From Bacteroidaceae bacterium (GTDB lineage Bacteria; Bacteroidota; Bacteroidia; Bacteroidales; Bacteroidaceae), in assembly GCA_017642425.1 (NCBI GenBank), contig JAGCPB010000046.1, positions 1 to 40,700 on the forward strand: a stretch of 40,700 nt of DNA, read 5' to 3'. Shown in pieces: positions 32,583 through 40,700 of this stretch. The notes under the pieces were generated by a model. It worked only from the letters and a program-made list of their open reading frames with translations, ran no database searches and was not told the DNA's origin. Every line of letters starts with the position of its first letter. Position 1 is the first letter of the stretch. Position numbers and translations under genes: made by a program.

Positions 32583-33104
32583 ATGAAGAAATTATTTTTT
32601 GCAGCAGCCGTAATGGCTCTCTTTACAGTGAATGCAAACGCTCAGTTCGGATTCGGTGCTCCCCAGCAGCAGGGTGGCGAGCCCAAGGCTCCCGAACTTG
32701 AGTATGTGGTACGTCTTAACGTTACCCTTGGCCAGGCCTATTCATCGGGCGACAACGGCAAGGGTACCCGCACCATAATTCCTATCACCGGCGGTACTTT
32801 TGAGGGTCCCAATATCAAGGGCGAGGTTCTGCCCGGCGGTGCAGACTATCAGCTGGCTGTTGACGGCCGCAATGAGGTTGAGGCAATCTACTGCATCCGT
32901 ACCGATGACGGCGTAAACATCCATGTCCGCAACAACGGCATCATCAAGATGGGTGGCCAGGGTGGCATGTATTTCCGTTGCGCCCCCAAGTTTGAGGCTC
33001 CCAAGGACAGCAAGTACGCCTGGATGAATGAGTGCCTGTTCCTGTGTCAGCCCGGCTTCGGCGCAGGTGGAGGCATCACACTCGACGTCTGGAAAGTCAA
33101 GTAA
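32583..33104 (+). CDS. Exported DUF3237 domain protein
   Basis: A 173-residue protein with a signal peptide ([21 protein letters not shown]) and a DUF3237 domain: [55 protein letters not shown] and [13 protein letters not shown]. The fold is a small beta-barrel of unknown activity in the family. A TATCTTTA -7-like box lies at 32535-32542, so it is probably transcribed alone. Its last eight bases overlap the convergent leuB gene. Confidence 0.85.
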
Positions 33105-34155
33105 GCATATAATCCACAATCCACTGACCTACTTCGCGGGTGCCGTATTTTGCGGTGCCCGCGATTTGTATTTCGGGGGTGCGGACGTTGGCGTCCAGCG
33201 AGGCTTGGACGGCTTTGCGGATCAGGGCGCCTTCCTCATTCAGGCCGAAATACTCGAACATCATGGCGGCGCTCAGAATCTGGGCGATAGGATTGGCTAT
33301 GTTGAGGCCTTTACCCTGGGGCCATGAGCCATGAACCGGTTCAAATACGGGAGTATGCTCTCCTGTTGATGCGCTGGGCAGCAGGCCCATGGATCCTGTT
33401 ATACACGACGCCTCATCGGTAAGGATATCTCCAAAGGTATTCTCGGTTACTATCACATCAAAGAAACGCGGCTCCTGGATCATGCGCATGGAGGCGTTGT
33501 CCACGAACATGAAATCGGTGGTCACGTCGGGATAATCCCTCATCATCTCCATGGCAACATTGCGCCACAGGCGGGAGCTGGCCAGCACGTTGGCCTTATC
33601 AACCACGGTCAGATGTTTCTTACGGGCCAGGGCGTATTTGTAGCCCACGCGTAGGATGCGCTCCACCTCGGCACGGCTGTACAGGTTGGTGTCAAATGCC
33701 TCATCGGTGCCCTCTTTCTTGGGGCCGAAATACATGCCGCCGGTAAGCTCGCGGATGCATATGAAATCGGCACCGCTCACAATCTCATCCTTAAGAGGTG
33801 ACTTGTGCACCAGGCAGTCAAATGTCTCTATGGGGCGTATGTTGGCGTACAGACCAAGTTTCTTGCGCATGGCCAGCAGACCCTGCTCCGGACGAACTTT
33901 TGATGTGGGGTCGTTGTCATACTTGGGGTCACCAACGGCTGCAAACAGTACGGCGTCACACTCCATGCAGGTTTGGAAAGTCTCATCGGGGAACGGGTCT
34001 CCCACCAGGTCTATGGCATGCGCGCCGCAAATCGCCTCGCGGTACTCAACCTCATGTCCAAACTTTTGGGCTACGGCATTAACTACAGCCACACCCTGCT
34101 CCATTATCTCGGGACCTATGCCGTCGCCGGCCAGGACTGCAATCTTAAGTTTCAT
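33097..34155 (-). CDS. leuB: 3-isopropylmalate dehydrogenase
   Basis: A 352-residue NAD-dependent beta-decarboxylating dehydrogenase: [19 protein letters not shown] at the N-terminus, [13 protein letters not shown] with the catalytic region, the [16 protein letters not shown] signature, [11 protein letters not shown], and [14 protein letters not shown]. It oxidises 3-isopropylmalate to 2-oxoisocaproate and in many bacteria also accepts methylmalate derived from citramalate, giving 2-oxobutyrate. It is the last gene of the leu operon and overlaps the fusion gene by four bases (ATGA). Confidence 0.96.
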
Positions 34156-36290
34156 ATCATTGTCTCAATCTTGTTCAACATCTTGACGGTTGCCTTGATG
34201 GCAGCCTCGGTCTGGTCGGCATCCAGGCCGCGGGTCTTGAATTCGGTGCCTTTAAAGTTCCATGTAATAATGGTCTGTACAAAGGCATCGGTGCGGCCGC
34301 CGGGCGGGATTGACACGGTATAGTTGGTCAGTATCGGGAACGGTTTGTCCAGCCCGGCGTATATCTTGCGCAGCGCACGCACAAAGGCATCATACTGACC
34401 GTCACCGGTGGCGGCCTCCTGATAGGGCTGTCCGTCTATTTCAATCTTGACGGTTGCCTGCGGACGCAGTCCCTGGGTAAGGCTGAGCGAATAGTTCAGC
34501 ACCCGGATGCGCTGCTCCTCCTGTTCGTGGTGCAGAACGTCATGTACAATGTACGGCAGGTCATCCTGAGTAACCTGCTCCTTCTTAACGCCCAGTTCAA
34601 TTATGCGGTCGGTCACCTTGCGCATGGACTCCTCATCAAGTTCTATGCCCATGGCCATAAGGTTCATCTGGATATTGGCCTTGCCGCTGTTCTTACCCAG
34701 GGCATATTCACGCACGCGGCCAAACCGCTCCGGCAGCAGGGCGTTGAAATAGAGGTTATCCTTCTTATCGCCATCGGCATGAACGCCGGCGCACTGCGTA
34801 AACACAAACTCGCCCACCACGGGCATATTGTGCGGAATATGTATGCCGCTGTCCAGCTCCACCTGACGGCTCACCTTGAACAGGCGACTCTCATTCAGCC
34901 CAGTCTCCACGCCCATCTGGTCATTGAGCATAGCCATTACGCTGCCCAGCGGAGCGTTACCAGCCCTCTCGCCCAGACCGTTCACTGTCACATGGACACC
35001 CTTTACGCCGGCCTTGACAGCCGCATAGACATTGGCCACAGCCAGGTCATAGTCATTGTGTGCATGGAAATCAAAATGTATCATAGGATAGCGCTCCACC
35101 ATACGGCGGCAGTACTCCAGAGTGGTATCGGGATTGAGAATACCCAGTGTATCGGGAAGCATCACACGCTTTACCGGCATTGCAGCAAGGGCATCCATCA
35201 GGTCAAACACGTATTTGGACGAGCGTTTCATGCCGTTACTCCAGTCTTCCAGATAGACGTTCACCTCCATACCGCGACTTACCGCATACTCAACGGTGCT
35301 CCGTATATCAGCTATATGCTGGTCGGCAGTCTTGCCCAACTGTGCGGTAACGTGCTTGAGACTGCCCTTGCAGAGCAGGTTCATAACCCGGCAACCGGCC
35401 TCCATTATCCAATCGGCCGAGCGGTTCCGGTCAACAAATCCCAGCACCTCGACGCGCCCCAGCAGACCGTTTCGATGCGCCCAATCGGCAATCCCCTTCA
35501 CGCAATCCTGCTCGCGGTCCGATACCATGGCCGATGCAATCTCCACGCGATCCACATTCAGGTCCGACAGCAAAGACTGGACAATGCTCAGTTTCTCCTG
35601 GTTAGAGAAACTCACACCCGATGTCTGCTCGCCGTCACGCAGCGTGGTGTCCAGAATCTCTATGTAACGCCCGCGGGATGCACGGCCCTCATACGCCTCG
35701 ATATCGGCCTTACGGCTAAGCAGATAGTCAATGTCATCATAGCCGTTAAGCAGGCAGAGTTTCTTGTAGCTGTCAATCTCAAACTTCTCGTAGTGTCCGG
35801 TGCCCAGATTGGTAACTGTCTGCTCCTGCAGATCTACACGTACCACAGCCTTTGGGTTTGAAGTCACAGTCCGCGCCAGTTCATCGCGGAAAGCGGTGCT
35901 CACGGTAACCGGCAGCACAAAGCAGTTCAGCAGGTTGCCGCGGTGTATATCGGCAAAACGGTCCGATATCACCACCCTGATGCCGTAACCCGCAATTGCC
36001 CATGCGGCATGCTCGCGGCTGGAGCCCGATCCCCAGTTGGTGCCGGCAATAACTATCTCGTGACAGCCTTTGTGCGGACGCTCGCTGTAATCGGGGTTAT
36101 TTAGCACAAACTCCTGCACCGGCTTGCCGTCTGCCCCGTAACGCAGGTCATGCATGAACGCATCGCCAAAATAGCCCAGGTCACGGGTGGTAGCTGCCAT
36201 ATAACGGGCCGGTATTATAAGGTCCGTATTGCAGTTGTCTATATTTATGGGAATGCAGGTTGATTCCACTATATTCATTTTCCTTTCCAT
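34152..36290 (-). CDS. Fused isopropylmalate dehydratase small subunit and citramalate/isopropylmalate synthase-like enzyme (LeuD-CimA)
   Basis: One uninterrupted frame encodes two enzymes. Residues ~5-200 are Leu[49 protein letters not shown]. After a ~10-residue linker ([10 protein letters not shown], near 35680) residues ~208-712 are an HMGL-like synthase: [35 protein letters not shown] (metal-binding HxHN), [26 protein letters not shown], and a C-terminal LeuA-type allosteric domain. The HAHNDYD form is closer to citramalate synthase (CimA) than the HCHND of the LeuA encoded upstream. In other Bacteroides, leuD and this second synthase are separate neighbouring genes. The frame can start at GTG 36296, ATG 36290 or ATG 36278; the middle is used. 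It starts two bases after leuC. Confidence 0.88.
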
Positions 36291-36292
36291 AG

Positions 36293-37690
36293 TCACAAGA
36301 GTTTACGGGGGTCAGTTATCACACCGGTTATAGCGCTGGCTGCCACAGTGAGCGGACTGGCCAGAACGGTTCTGGAGCCGGGCCCCTGACGGCCCACAAA
36401 GTTGCGGTTTGAGGTGGATATGCACAGCTTACCTGCCGGAACCTTATCGGGGTTCATGGCCAGACAGGCCGAGCATGACGGCAGACGCAGTTCAAAACCG
36501 GCCTCCTCAAGTATCTTGTCTATACACTCCTCTATTATCTGACGGCGTACTGCCCATGATCCGGGCACCAGCCAGGCGGTTACCCCTGGAGCCTTGTGCT
36601 GTCCCTGCACCACGCTTGCAAACGCGCGGAAATCCTCTATACGGCCGTTGGTGCATGCGCCCAGGAAACACCAATCTACAGGTGTGCCCTCCAGTTTCTG
36701 CCCTGGCTTGAACTGCATGTAGTCCAGCTGAACTTTCAGCTGCTCACGCTCCGCATCAGACAATCCTTCATATACAGGAACGGTGCCGTCAATTGCGATT
36801 CCCGCACCGGGATTGGTTCCGTAGGTAATGCGCGGTGCAATGTCATCGGCATAGAATGTTACCTCGCGGTCAAAACGGGCGTCGTCATCAGTGCGCAGAT
36901 TTCGCCAGACAGCTACCGCACGGTCCCAATCGGCACCCTTGGGCGCATACTCGCGCCCGCGCAGCCAGCTGAACGTGGTCTCATCGGGAGCAATCAGACC
37001 GGCACGGCTGCCCATCTCTATGGACAGGTTGGACAGCGTGAGCCTGCCCTCCATAGACATCTCGCGCACTACCTGTCCTGCATACTCCACTGCATATCCC
37101 GTTGCACCCGATGTGGTCATCTGGGCCATTATGTACAATGCCACATCCTTGGCGGTAACACCCTTGCCCAGCTTACCTTCAATATTTATGCGCATGGTCT
37201 TGGGCTTGAACTGAAGTATGCACTCTGATGCCAGTATCTGCGCCACCTGTGATGTGCCTATACCCATTGCCACAGCACCCAGAGCACCGTGTGTTGAGGT
37301 GTGCGAGTCGCCGCACATGATGGTCATTCCGGGCAGCGACAGGCCTTTCTCCGGGCCCACCACATGGATTATTCCGTTATCGGGAGTACCCATACCGAAA
37401 CATTTTATCCCAAACTCGCGGCAGTTACTCTCCAGCGTCTCAACCTGCTTGCGACCCACAGGGTCTTCTATGCTGTCCTGACAGTTTGACGGCGTATTGT
37501 GGTCAGGCATAGCAAACACCTTATCGGGGCGCAGCACGCCGCAGCCCTTGTCGCGGATAGCATCAAACGCCTGCGGGGTGGTAACCTCATGGCAGTACAA
37601 ACGGTCTATATAAAGTACGTCAGGTCCGTCGGGGACTGACTGCACCACATGGGCGCTCCATATCTTGTCAAACAGCGTCTTTCCCATCAC
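36293..37690 (-). CDS. leuC: 3-isopropylmalate dehydratase large subunit
   Basis: A 465-residue aconitase-family protein that isomerises 2- to 3-isopropylmalate with the LeuD part of the downstream fusion. The [4Fe-4S] cysteines are visible in [11 protein letters not shown] (first) and [14 protein letters not shown] (CxxC). Also present are the family signatures [20 protein letters not shown] and [14 protein letters not shown]. Its start overlaps the end of leuA by about 20 bases; two adjacent ATGs (37690, 37687) are possible. Homologues in the citramalate route also dehydrate citramalate. Confidence 0.96.
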
Positions 37691-39194
37691 TCTCAGGTTT
37701 GAATTTGTTTATACAGTCTATATAAGCCTCCACGCTGGCGGTAACTATATCGGTGTCCGACCCGAATCCGTAGTACAGATGCCCGTCATTCTCCACCTGC
37801 ATGTGTACCTTACACATATCGTCCGATCCCTTGGACAGCGCCTGGATTGTCATCTCCTTAAGCGTCATGGTGCGGCGGATTATCTGCTTGAGTGCCTTGA
37901 TCGATGCATCAAGCGGTCCGTTTCCGGTTGACTGGGCACTGAATGAACGGCCATCAACGTTCAGACGTATGGTGGCATCGGGTACCACACCTTTTCCGGT
38001 AGTCACCTCCAGCGCCTCCAGTTTTACATGACGCTTGGCGGCTACATCGGCCCCGGCCAGCATCAGTATGTCATCGTCGGTAAGCTCCTTCTTCTTATCG
38101 GCCAGCTTCAGGAAGGCCTCATATATGCGGTTCATGGCTATAGCATCCACCTTAACACCCAGAGCAGTAAGGCGGTGCTTGAGTGCGGCTCGGCCGGACC
38201 GGGCAGTCATAACTATATTAGCTTCTTCCAGGCCCACATCCTTTGGGTCTATTATCTCATACGTACTGGTGTTCTTGAGCACGCCGTCCTGGTGTATGCC
38301 GCTGGAGTGCGCAAACGCGTTGCGTCCCACTATTGCCTTGTTGAACTGAACCGGCATGCTCATTAGTGATGATACCAGACGGCTTGCGGCGGTAATTCTC
38401 TGGGTGTTGATTCCGCACTCCAGAGGTATGCTGTGATGGCACTTAAGGATCATAGCAATCTCCTCGAGCGATGTGTTTCCGGCCCTCTCGCCCACACCGT
38501 TTACGGTCACCTCCACCTGGCGCGCTCCGTTCAGCACGCCGCTCATGGTGTTGGCCGTAGCCATTCCCAGGTCATTGTGACAGTGGGTGGAAAGGATTGC
38601 CTTACCGTTGGCCAGACCATCCACATGCTCCATCAGATAGCGTATTTTGGCTCCGTATTCATCGGGCAGACAGTAACCCGTAGTATCAGGTATATTTATT
38701 ATGGTGGCGCCGGCCTTGATTACAGCATCGGCCACACGTGCCAGATATTCGTTATCGGTGCGGCCGGCATCCTCGGCATAGAACTCCACTTCATCAACCC
38801 TTTTTGACACGGCATATTTCACTGCGGCTACGGCACGCTCCAGAATCTCATCGCGGGTGCTGTTGAACTTATATAGAATATGCTCATCGCTTGTGCCTAT
38901 CCCGGTGTGTATGCGCTTCAGCTTGGCATACTGCAACGCCTGGGCCGCAGCATCAATATCGGCCTCAATGGAACGGGTAAGAGCACATATAACGGGTCTG
39001 GATACCGCACGCGATATCTCCACCACCGAATTGAAATCGCCCGGGCTGCTCACGGGAAAGCCAGCCTCAATCACATCCACACCAAGCGCTTCAAGCTGAC
39101 GCGCAACCTCAATCTTCTCAATCGTATTGAGCTGGCATCCGGGGACCTGTTCGCCGTCCCTGAGAGTCGTGTCAAAGAAAATCAGTCTGTCCAT
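37668..39194 (-). CDS. leuA: 2-isopropylmalate synthase
   Basis: A 508-residue enzyme condensing acetyl-CoA with 2-oxoisovalerate. Motifs: [52 protein letters not shown] (metal-binding HxHN), [27 protein letters not shown] and a C-terminal leucine-binding LeuA dimer domain (about residues 390-500). It is the first structural gene of the operon; its ATG at 39194 lies only nine bases after the T-run of the attenuator, so ribosome access and terminator formation are closely linked. Confidence 0.96.
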
Positions 39195-40109: not shown

Positions 40110-40700
40110 TTACTTTGATTCCTCAAAAAGGAATTTGCGAAAATCCGCGTAGTCCTTACTTATCTCCACACTCTGCTTGGTGCCCTTCATGAAGGCCTGC
40201 AGGCGGGCTGGAATCTCCACGTCACCGCCGGTGATGGCATCCACCTTCTCCTTGAACTTGGCGGGATGTGCGGTCTCCAGAAATACGCCGTACTCACCGG
40301 GCTGCAACTGCTCCCTGAGGGCTCGATAACCGCATGTTCCGTGCGGGTCAAGCAGATAACCGGTACGCTGGTAGCACTCCTTAAGGGTCTCCTTAATCTG
40401 CTCGTCAGTGTAAGTTGAACCGCTGATGTGACCTGCAATATCCTTGTGTGAGCCGCCGTACAGGGCAAGAACACGTGCAAAGTTGCTGGGATCGCCCACA
40501 TCCATTGCGTTGGCCAGTGTCTGAACCGATGGCTTGGGGCTATATACTCCGGTCTGGAGGTAGTTGTAGAATATGTCGTTGGCGTTGTTGGCGGCAATGA
40601 ATCGCTTTACGGGCAGTCCCATGAACCAGCCGATCAGTCCAGCTGTGATATTGCCAAAATTACCGCTGGGCACGCAGATTACCAGATTATCGGCCTTGCC
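40110..40700 (-). CDS. thrC: Threonine synthase, C-terminal part (5' end outside window)
   Basis: The frame is open at the right edge (KADNLVICVPSGNFG) and ends at 40110, giving 196 residues. VPSGNFGNITAGLIGWFMGL is the phosphate-cup region that holds the pyridoxal phosphate, and LDPHGTCGYRAL, FLETAHPAKF and the C-terminal tail fit the family. Threonine synthase converts phosphohomoserine to threonine, the precursor of isoleucine by the ordinary deaminase route. The N-terminal half with the lysine that binds the cofactor lies outside the window. Confidence 0.95.
   Translation of the reverse strand, partial: GKADNLVICVPSGNFGNITAGLIGWFMGLPVKRFIAANNANDIFYNYLQTGVYSPKPSVQTLANAMDVGDPSNFARVLALYGGSHKDIAGHISGSTYTDEQIKETLKECYQRTGYLLDPHGTCGYRALREQLQPGEYGVFLETAHPAKFKEKVDAITGGDVEIPARLQAFMKGTKQSVEISKDYADFRKFLFEESK

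Follow-up and report, generated by a model that had tools for sequence, protein, structure and literature searches.

A leuD-cimA fusion predicted to serve leucine and isoleucine synthesis in a genus of herbivore-gut Bacteroidaceae

The leucine operon in the 40,700-nucleotide stretch of DNA analysed here (hereafter the window) contains one open frame that joins the small subunit of 3-isopropylmalate dehydratase (LeuD) to a synthase of its own, and this raises the question whether the frame specifies a genuine bifunctional protein and, if so, what that protein does and how it arose. The frame (34152..36296, minus strand) is open for 714 codons from a GTG at 36296 and for 712 codons from an ATG at 36290; the comparison with unfused LeuD proteins makes the ATG the more likely start. 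From there the predicted product has 712 amino acids and a computed mass of 79.6 kDa, close to the product of about 79 kDa that the initial annotation of this DNA had anticipated. Pfam recognises Aconitase_C at residues 10-133, HMGL-like at 212-479, HCS_D2 at 493-572 and LeuA_dimer at 574-710. The LeuD domain (residues 3-196; 35709..36290, minus strand), which is delimited by Aconitase_C, PRK01641/TIGR00171 and the structures with PDB codes 2hcu and 3q3w, is followed by a junction (residues 197-211; 35664..35708, minus strand) where the C-terminal helix of LeuD passes into a short hinge; the window copy lacks an in-frame start codon here. The citramalate synthase (CimA) domain (residues 212-714; 34155..35663, minus strand) comprises a catalytic barrel, a linker and the LeuA_dimer allosteric domain, as judged from Pfam, NCBIfam and an alignment to the Leptospira interrogans enzyme (LiCMS). 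The linker between LeuD and CimA amounts to a few residues only. The earlier view that a complete LeuD and a complete synthase share one frame, with a short linker and no frameshift, is borne out by the Pfam and NCBIfam matches and by the related Bacteroidales genomes, the same fusion being found in 21 of the 37 genomes of the genus.

The order of the operon is leuA-leuC-leuD/cimA-leuB, with all genes on the minus strand. Upstream lies leuA, encoding 2-isopropylmalate synthase (37668..39194), the product of which scores 625 bits with TIGR00973, above the cut-off, and also passes PRK00915.1-3. It is followed by leuC, the large subunit of the isomerase (36293..37690), and the fused gene is followed by leuB, encoding 3-isopropylmalate dehydrogenase (33097..34155). 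There is an overlap of 23 nt between leuA and leuC, one of 4 nt between leuC and the fusion as started from GTG, and another of 4 nt between the stop of the fusion and the start of leuB.

By its alignments, the synthase half is a citramalate synthase of the Leptospira type and not a second LeuA. This assignment is based on the bit scores against proteins of known structure (388 for LiCMS, compared to 189 for a homocitrate synthase, while the best isopropylmalate synthase reached 146) and on the residues lining two pockets. Among the curated models NF042433 (CimA, Leptospira type) was the best synthase model, although its 628 bits lie below the cut-off of 950; TIGR00977 (182.5, cut-off 450) and the LeuA models (at best 334.6 of 517, for PRK00915.1-2) were below their cut-offs as well. 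The metal and catalytic residues of LiCMS, which we take to be R16, D17, E146, T179, H207 and H209, are all present in the fused CimA, but as the LeuA rows of the alignment have them too, they do not discriminate. The pyruvate pocket of LiCMS is presumably formed by L81, L104 and Y144, to which L285, L308 and Y348 correspond in the fused protein. L/L/Y occurs in 13 of 13 CimA rows, whereas 9 of 9 LeuA rows depart from it at two of the three positions (a gap and G), the Y being common to both. For the isoleucine pocket we assume Y430, L451, Y454, I458 and V468 in LiCMS, and this pocket is kept in the window copy as Y635, L656, Y659, I663 and V673; F replaces Y430 in three of the 13 CimA rows. 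All nine LeuA rows differ from the CimA pockets in the alignment. The fused protein is therefore predicted, from its pocket residues, to use pyruvate and to make (R)-citramalate. The comparison with CimA and LeuA, in alignment, bit scores and pockets, thus upholds the initial annotation in seeing a CimA-like synthase with a separate LeuA next door. Its choice of the HAHND(YD) motif as a mark of CimA did not hold, because Leptospira CimA has HGHNDYD and homocitrate synthase has HAHND; HAHNDYD itself is present in the synthase half.

The LeuD half exceeds the cut-offs of both LeuD models (PRK01641, 182.4 against 167; TIGR00171, 133.1 against 116.25) and retains the SSREHAAWA stretch. In the window's own genome (G000) it is the only small subunit of the isomerase that was found, and LeuC is the only large subunit of the aconitase family; a PF00330 search of G000 returned LeuC only and no aconitase. 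As this genome is 87% complete, it should be noted that absences in it are provisional. A threonine ammonia-lyase (IlvA) above the TIGR02079 cut-off was found in none of 13 genomes (best match 76 of 440.55 bits), while the same cut-off was passed in 3 of 14 control genomes. The best match in G000 falls in trpB. The matches to PALP, five of five in G000 and four of four in a second genome (G024), represent CysK, TrpB or TrpB-like proteins, ThrC, or a threonine-synthase-like protein under the cut-off. Since all of them are proteins other than IlvA, citramalate is the only route to 2-oxobutyrate that was recognised in these two genomes. A human gut genome survey likewise scored CimA as an alternative to IlvA (PMC9026213). 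With a sole LeuD, a sole LeuC and no IlvA found, the fused protein probably has a role in the synthesis of leucine as well as of isoleucine.

Two observations concern other genes of these genomes. L137 (contig C55 of G000) and L138 (contig C70 of G024) encode a threonine-synthase- or cysteate-synthase-like protein below all curated cut-offs shown, and a weak HMGL-type match lies on C55 near L137. At the contig end, positions 40110-40673 of the window (minus strand) represent the 3' part of thrC, and a 5' part of thrC is located at the end of contig C69; the thrC gene of G000 has probably been split by the assembly.

None of the 21 fused genes of the main clade contains a stop. Among these genes, LeuD had a median dN/dS of 0.13, the junction (residues 197-211) one of 0.15 and CimA one of 0.058, at a median dS of 0.8 to 1.0 (200, 157 and 210 of 210 pairs, respectively, with saturated pairs and pairs with zero synonymous changes left out). 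By this measure of sequence divergence, the junction is under purifying selection in the main fused clade. The junction might be suspected to be an artefact of sequencing or assembly, as the named relatives are MAG or isolate assemblies of uncultured bacteria and as L041 has an undetermined base at this very site. However, the identical frame is present in 21 separately assembled genomes that have diverged to the extent given above, and we judge this explanation to be refuted, its residual probability being negligible. It is also conceivable that two proteins are still made, either by proteolysis or by a restart inside the frame. Indeed, an ATG or GTG occurs at residues 190-216 in 7 of the 21 fused genes, and the fused L015 retains the ATG at the site of the would-be cimA start. 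Yet the other 14, including the window copy, have no in-frame ATG, GTG or TTG at these residues, and in those the CimA part is therefore probably made only within the fusion. An internal start in the window copy was rejected for the same reason, and the production of two proteins appears very improbable. The unfused loci with the junction most like that of the fusion, L017 and L018, read ...EEYENR-TAG-ATG-ERYIEIL..., with D for that E in L018, and most fused copies share a similar junction reading of 16 residues (letters not shown).

Within the genus, 21 of the 37 genomes carry an intact main-clade fusion with 74-100% identity, the window's own included. One genome (G307) has a different uninterrupted fusion with 60% identity, and in three others (G301, G311 and G297) fused-type halves are interrupted, be it by an N gap, by a shift of frame within CimA or by the ends of contigs. 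leuD and cimA are neighbours but separate in G306 and G278. In G119, G310, G203, G267 and G309, leuA and cimA lie side by side and no leuC or leuD was found in assemblies that are 79-90% complete; a CimA match was not found in G304, G308, G070, G050 and G088. Several of these genomes deserve a remark of their own. The frameshift of G311 (L042/L063), near fusion residues 497-505, may be real or an assembly artefact. At the loci of the five leuA-cimA genomes (L044-L048, L078, L081 and L082) the two genes are adjacent or overlap, and neither LeuC, LeuD nor any PF00330 protein was found; a PF00330 protein was not found in G050, G070 and G088 either, which are 96-98% complete.

Beyond the genus, overlapping samples of the family, order, class and phylum were searched, in which fusions with long linkers could show up as two separate matches. 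For the family, with 301 genomes including those of the genus itself, 31 of the matches listed cover both halves; 13 of them are free of stops, all in the genus, and 18 contain at least one stop. For the order (393 genomes), 14 of the matches listed span both halves and two are stop-free, namely those of G000 and G492. Among the 12 genomes of the family to which G492 belongs, G492 alone is stop-free over both halves, the match in G1086 having two stops. Seven matches over both halves were listed for the class (395 genomes) and seven were obtained for the phylum (395 genomes, E at most 1e-60), and in both samples every one except that of G000 has a stop. The fusion is unusual, as initially supposed: apart from G492, the genomes sampled from other genera have leuD and cimA as separate genes. 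Long open frames (e.g. 879 aa) for matches over residues 211-711 had raised the suspicion of cimA-leuB or leuC fusions. These were rejected, as 30 of 30 suspicious loci examined (12 from the family, 18 from the order or class) have an in-frame stop no more than about 50 codons ahead of cimA; in the phylum sample, long values of this kind also occurred in G1222 and G1209. The assemblies of the relatives include Red_deer, Reindeer, Yak_Omasum, Sheep_Reticulum and Horse_feces in addition to UBA and RUG, the latter of which we take to denote rumen; the fusion-bearing group is one of herbivore-gut bacteria.

The two halves of the main-clade fusion differ in ancestry. This was examined with trees of a quick kind that carry SH-aLRT support only, from which rows with less than 80% of the gene matched were left out, as were L083, L078, L081 and L082 in the case of CimA and LeuD, these being repeats of other loci. 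In the LeuD (80 rows), LeuC (73), LeuA (37) and LeuB (66) trees the fused clade stands among the usual forms of the family, but in the CimA tree (90 rows) it groups with the five leuA-cimA genomes and then with G420 from a different family, apart from the CimA typical of its own family. The fused gene therefore looks like a chimera. Holding the fused CimA together with nine loci of its LeuD relatives was rejected (AU p-value of 6e-55), where it should be noted that the groups for all AU tests were named after the trees had been seen. When CimA was split at residue 360, both the first 155 residues and the rest grouped with the leuA-cimA genomes (support of 99.5 and 100) and both rejected the grouping with the LeuD relatives (p-values of 0.0017 and 3e-6). 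The change of ancestry therefore lies at or near the junction, and the idea that a breakpoint within cimA fully accounts for the chimera signal is not supported. Two small length differences separate the halves as well: a 7-residue insert in LeuD is common to the fused clade, L017, L019 and L068, and a one-residue gap in CimA is common to the fused clade, the leuA-cimA genomes and G492 but absent from L017, L019 and L068. On these sequence comparisons, the likeliest origin of the main-clade fusion is that the cimA of another lineage replaced the resident cimA, in frame with leuD. Alternatively, the foreign-looking CimA could be an old paralogue that underwent differential loss. The sliding identity at columns 241-280 and 321-360 speaks against replacement in that it is no higher to the sister CimA of the leuA-cimA genomes than to the resident CimA. 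The operon at L110 of G420 looks mosaic in its own right, since its LeuC and LeuD nest in Bacteroidaceae forms and its CimA, LeuA and LeuB do not.

The fusions of G307 and G492 are likely, but not certain, to have arisen separately from that of the main clade, which would give three independent origins. For the whole CimA half, AU tests rejected a main clade held with G307 (p-value of 2.5e-4), with G492 (4e-5) or with both (2e-117), and so did the part of CimA after residue 360 (5e-6 with G307 and 1.4e-4 with G492). The first 155 residues of CimA allow a single origin (0.16 and 0.42, respectively), and LeuD alone gave p-values of 0.07 with G307, 0.14 with G492 and 0.024 for all three together. 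A single origin of all fusions is thus rejected by the whole CimA half, though not by the first 155 residues or by every LeuD test. Both G307 and G492 are without the 7-residue LeuD insert. G307 is 77% complete with 3% contamination, and its LeuB is sister to that of its congener G306; G492 is 99% complete and the sole species of its genus in the sample.

Taken together, we consider it highly probable that the frame encodes a real bifunctional LeuD-CimA protein of chimeric origin that acts in both pathways. Its N-terminal LeuD would pair with the separately made LeuC, which should bind the LeuD half as usual, to form the sole isopropylmalate/citramalate isomerase found, and its C-terminal half would convert pyruvate and acetyl-CoA into citramalate in the first step of a threonine-independent isoleucine synthesis, subject to inhibition by isoleucine via the LeuA_dimer domain. 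The operon leuA-leuC-leuD/cimA-leuB could then supply leucine as well as 2-oxobutyrate for isoleucine. By the fusion, LeuD and CimA would be set at a ratio of 1:1 and the synthase of the isoleucine branch would be tethered to the isomerase, possibly with a kinetic benefit. In an AlphaFold (AF2) model of the fusion (mean pLDDT 77.8, pTM 0.49), the last LeuD helix (196-206) is connected to a strand at 213 by a hinge of low confidence (203-208).

What the fusion contributes beyond its two activities is a separate matter. It may be a near-neutral by-product of operon compaction, in which the stop was lost without any functional gain, and we regard this as a serious possibility with somewhat less than an even chance. 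The genes of the operon are packed unusually tightly in the fused clade, which supports this explanation: with gene starts projected from the window's genes, the median gaps for leuA-leuC, leuC-leuD and cimA-leuB are -23 (n=13), -4 (n=20) and -4 nt (n=21), compared to 56.5 (n=26), 17 (n=49) and 51 (n=41) in unfused loci, where the median leuD-cimA gap is 72 (n=50). The abutting TAG and ATG of L017/L018 and the brevity of the linker point in the same direction. On the other hand, the same gene pair has apparently been fused repeatedly according to the CimA tree (recurrence having been counted at the leuD-cimA pair alone), and the junction is both open and constrained across 21 species. The same apparent recurrence, and the fact that consecutive enzymes of a pathway are joined, would suit true channelling as proposed in the initial annotation, in which citramalate would be handed on by CimA to the LeuC-LeuD site and kept out of the bulk solvent. 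Complexes of isopropylmalate isomerase and dehydrogenase (IPMI and IPMDH) in Arabidopsis, for which channelling has been suggested (PMC7876033), offer a parallel. Nevertheless, we consider channelling unlikely, because the isomerase depends on a separate LeuC, the low-confidence hinge of the AF2 model leaves the two sites unfixed relative to each other, and LeuD must also process isopropylmalate from the unfused LeuA; moreover, no interaction was reported for the synthases MAM1 and MAM3 in that Arabidopsis screen (PMC7876033). Slightly more doubtful still is the idea that isoleucine bound to the CimA domain alters the fused LeuD and hence the activity of LeuC-LeuD, so that the isoleucine level would set the leucine flux and three lineages would have acquired the same wiring independently.

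If the bifunctional reading is correct, the fusion represents a naturally occurring and apparently recurrent case of a single protein that links the initial two steps of the citramalate route, with an isomerase shared with leucine synthesis, and it looks like a foreign gene that has become part of a resident protein. Channelling, fixed stoichiometry and cross-pathway control could be tested on it directly against mere operon compaction, and a ready-made LeuD-CimA could be of interest to makers of citramalate or 2-oxobutyrate products. No description of a LeuD-CimA fusion was found in the literature searched, although the architecture may stand unremarked in domain-architecture databases.

Among known systems, the synthase half is most readily compared with the citramalate synthase of L. 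interrogans (PDB 3BLE for the catalytic and 3F6G for the regulatory part; NF042433), with which it forms a gap-free alignment of 318 residues and shares all of the pyruvate- and isoleucine-pocket residues assumed above; it differs in bearing an N-terminal LeuD and in scoring below the NF042433 cut-off. The LeuD half resembles bacterial LeuD over the whole domain, including SSREHAAWA, but runs on into the synthase instead of ending. In most of the unfused Bacteroidales loci compared, the same genes occur in the same order, leuA-leuC-leuD-cimA-leuB, but there a stop parts leuD from cimA, and the CimA of the fused clade is of other ancestry. The Arabidopsis complex likewise joins consecutive enzymes of the pathway physically (PMC7876033); it is non-covalent and combines isomerase with dehydrogenase, whereas the fusion described here would join synthase and isomerase subunit in one chain.
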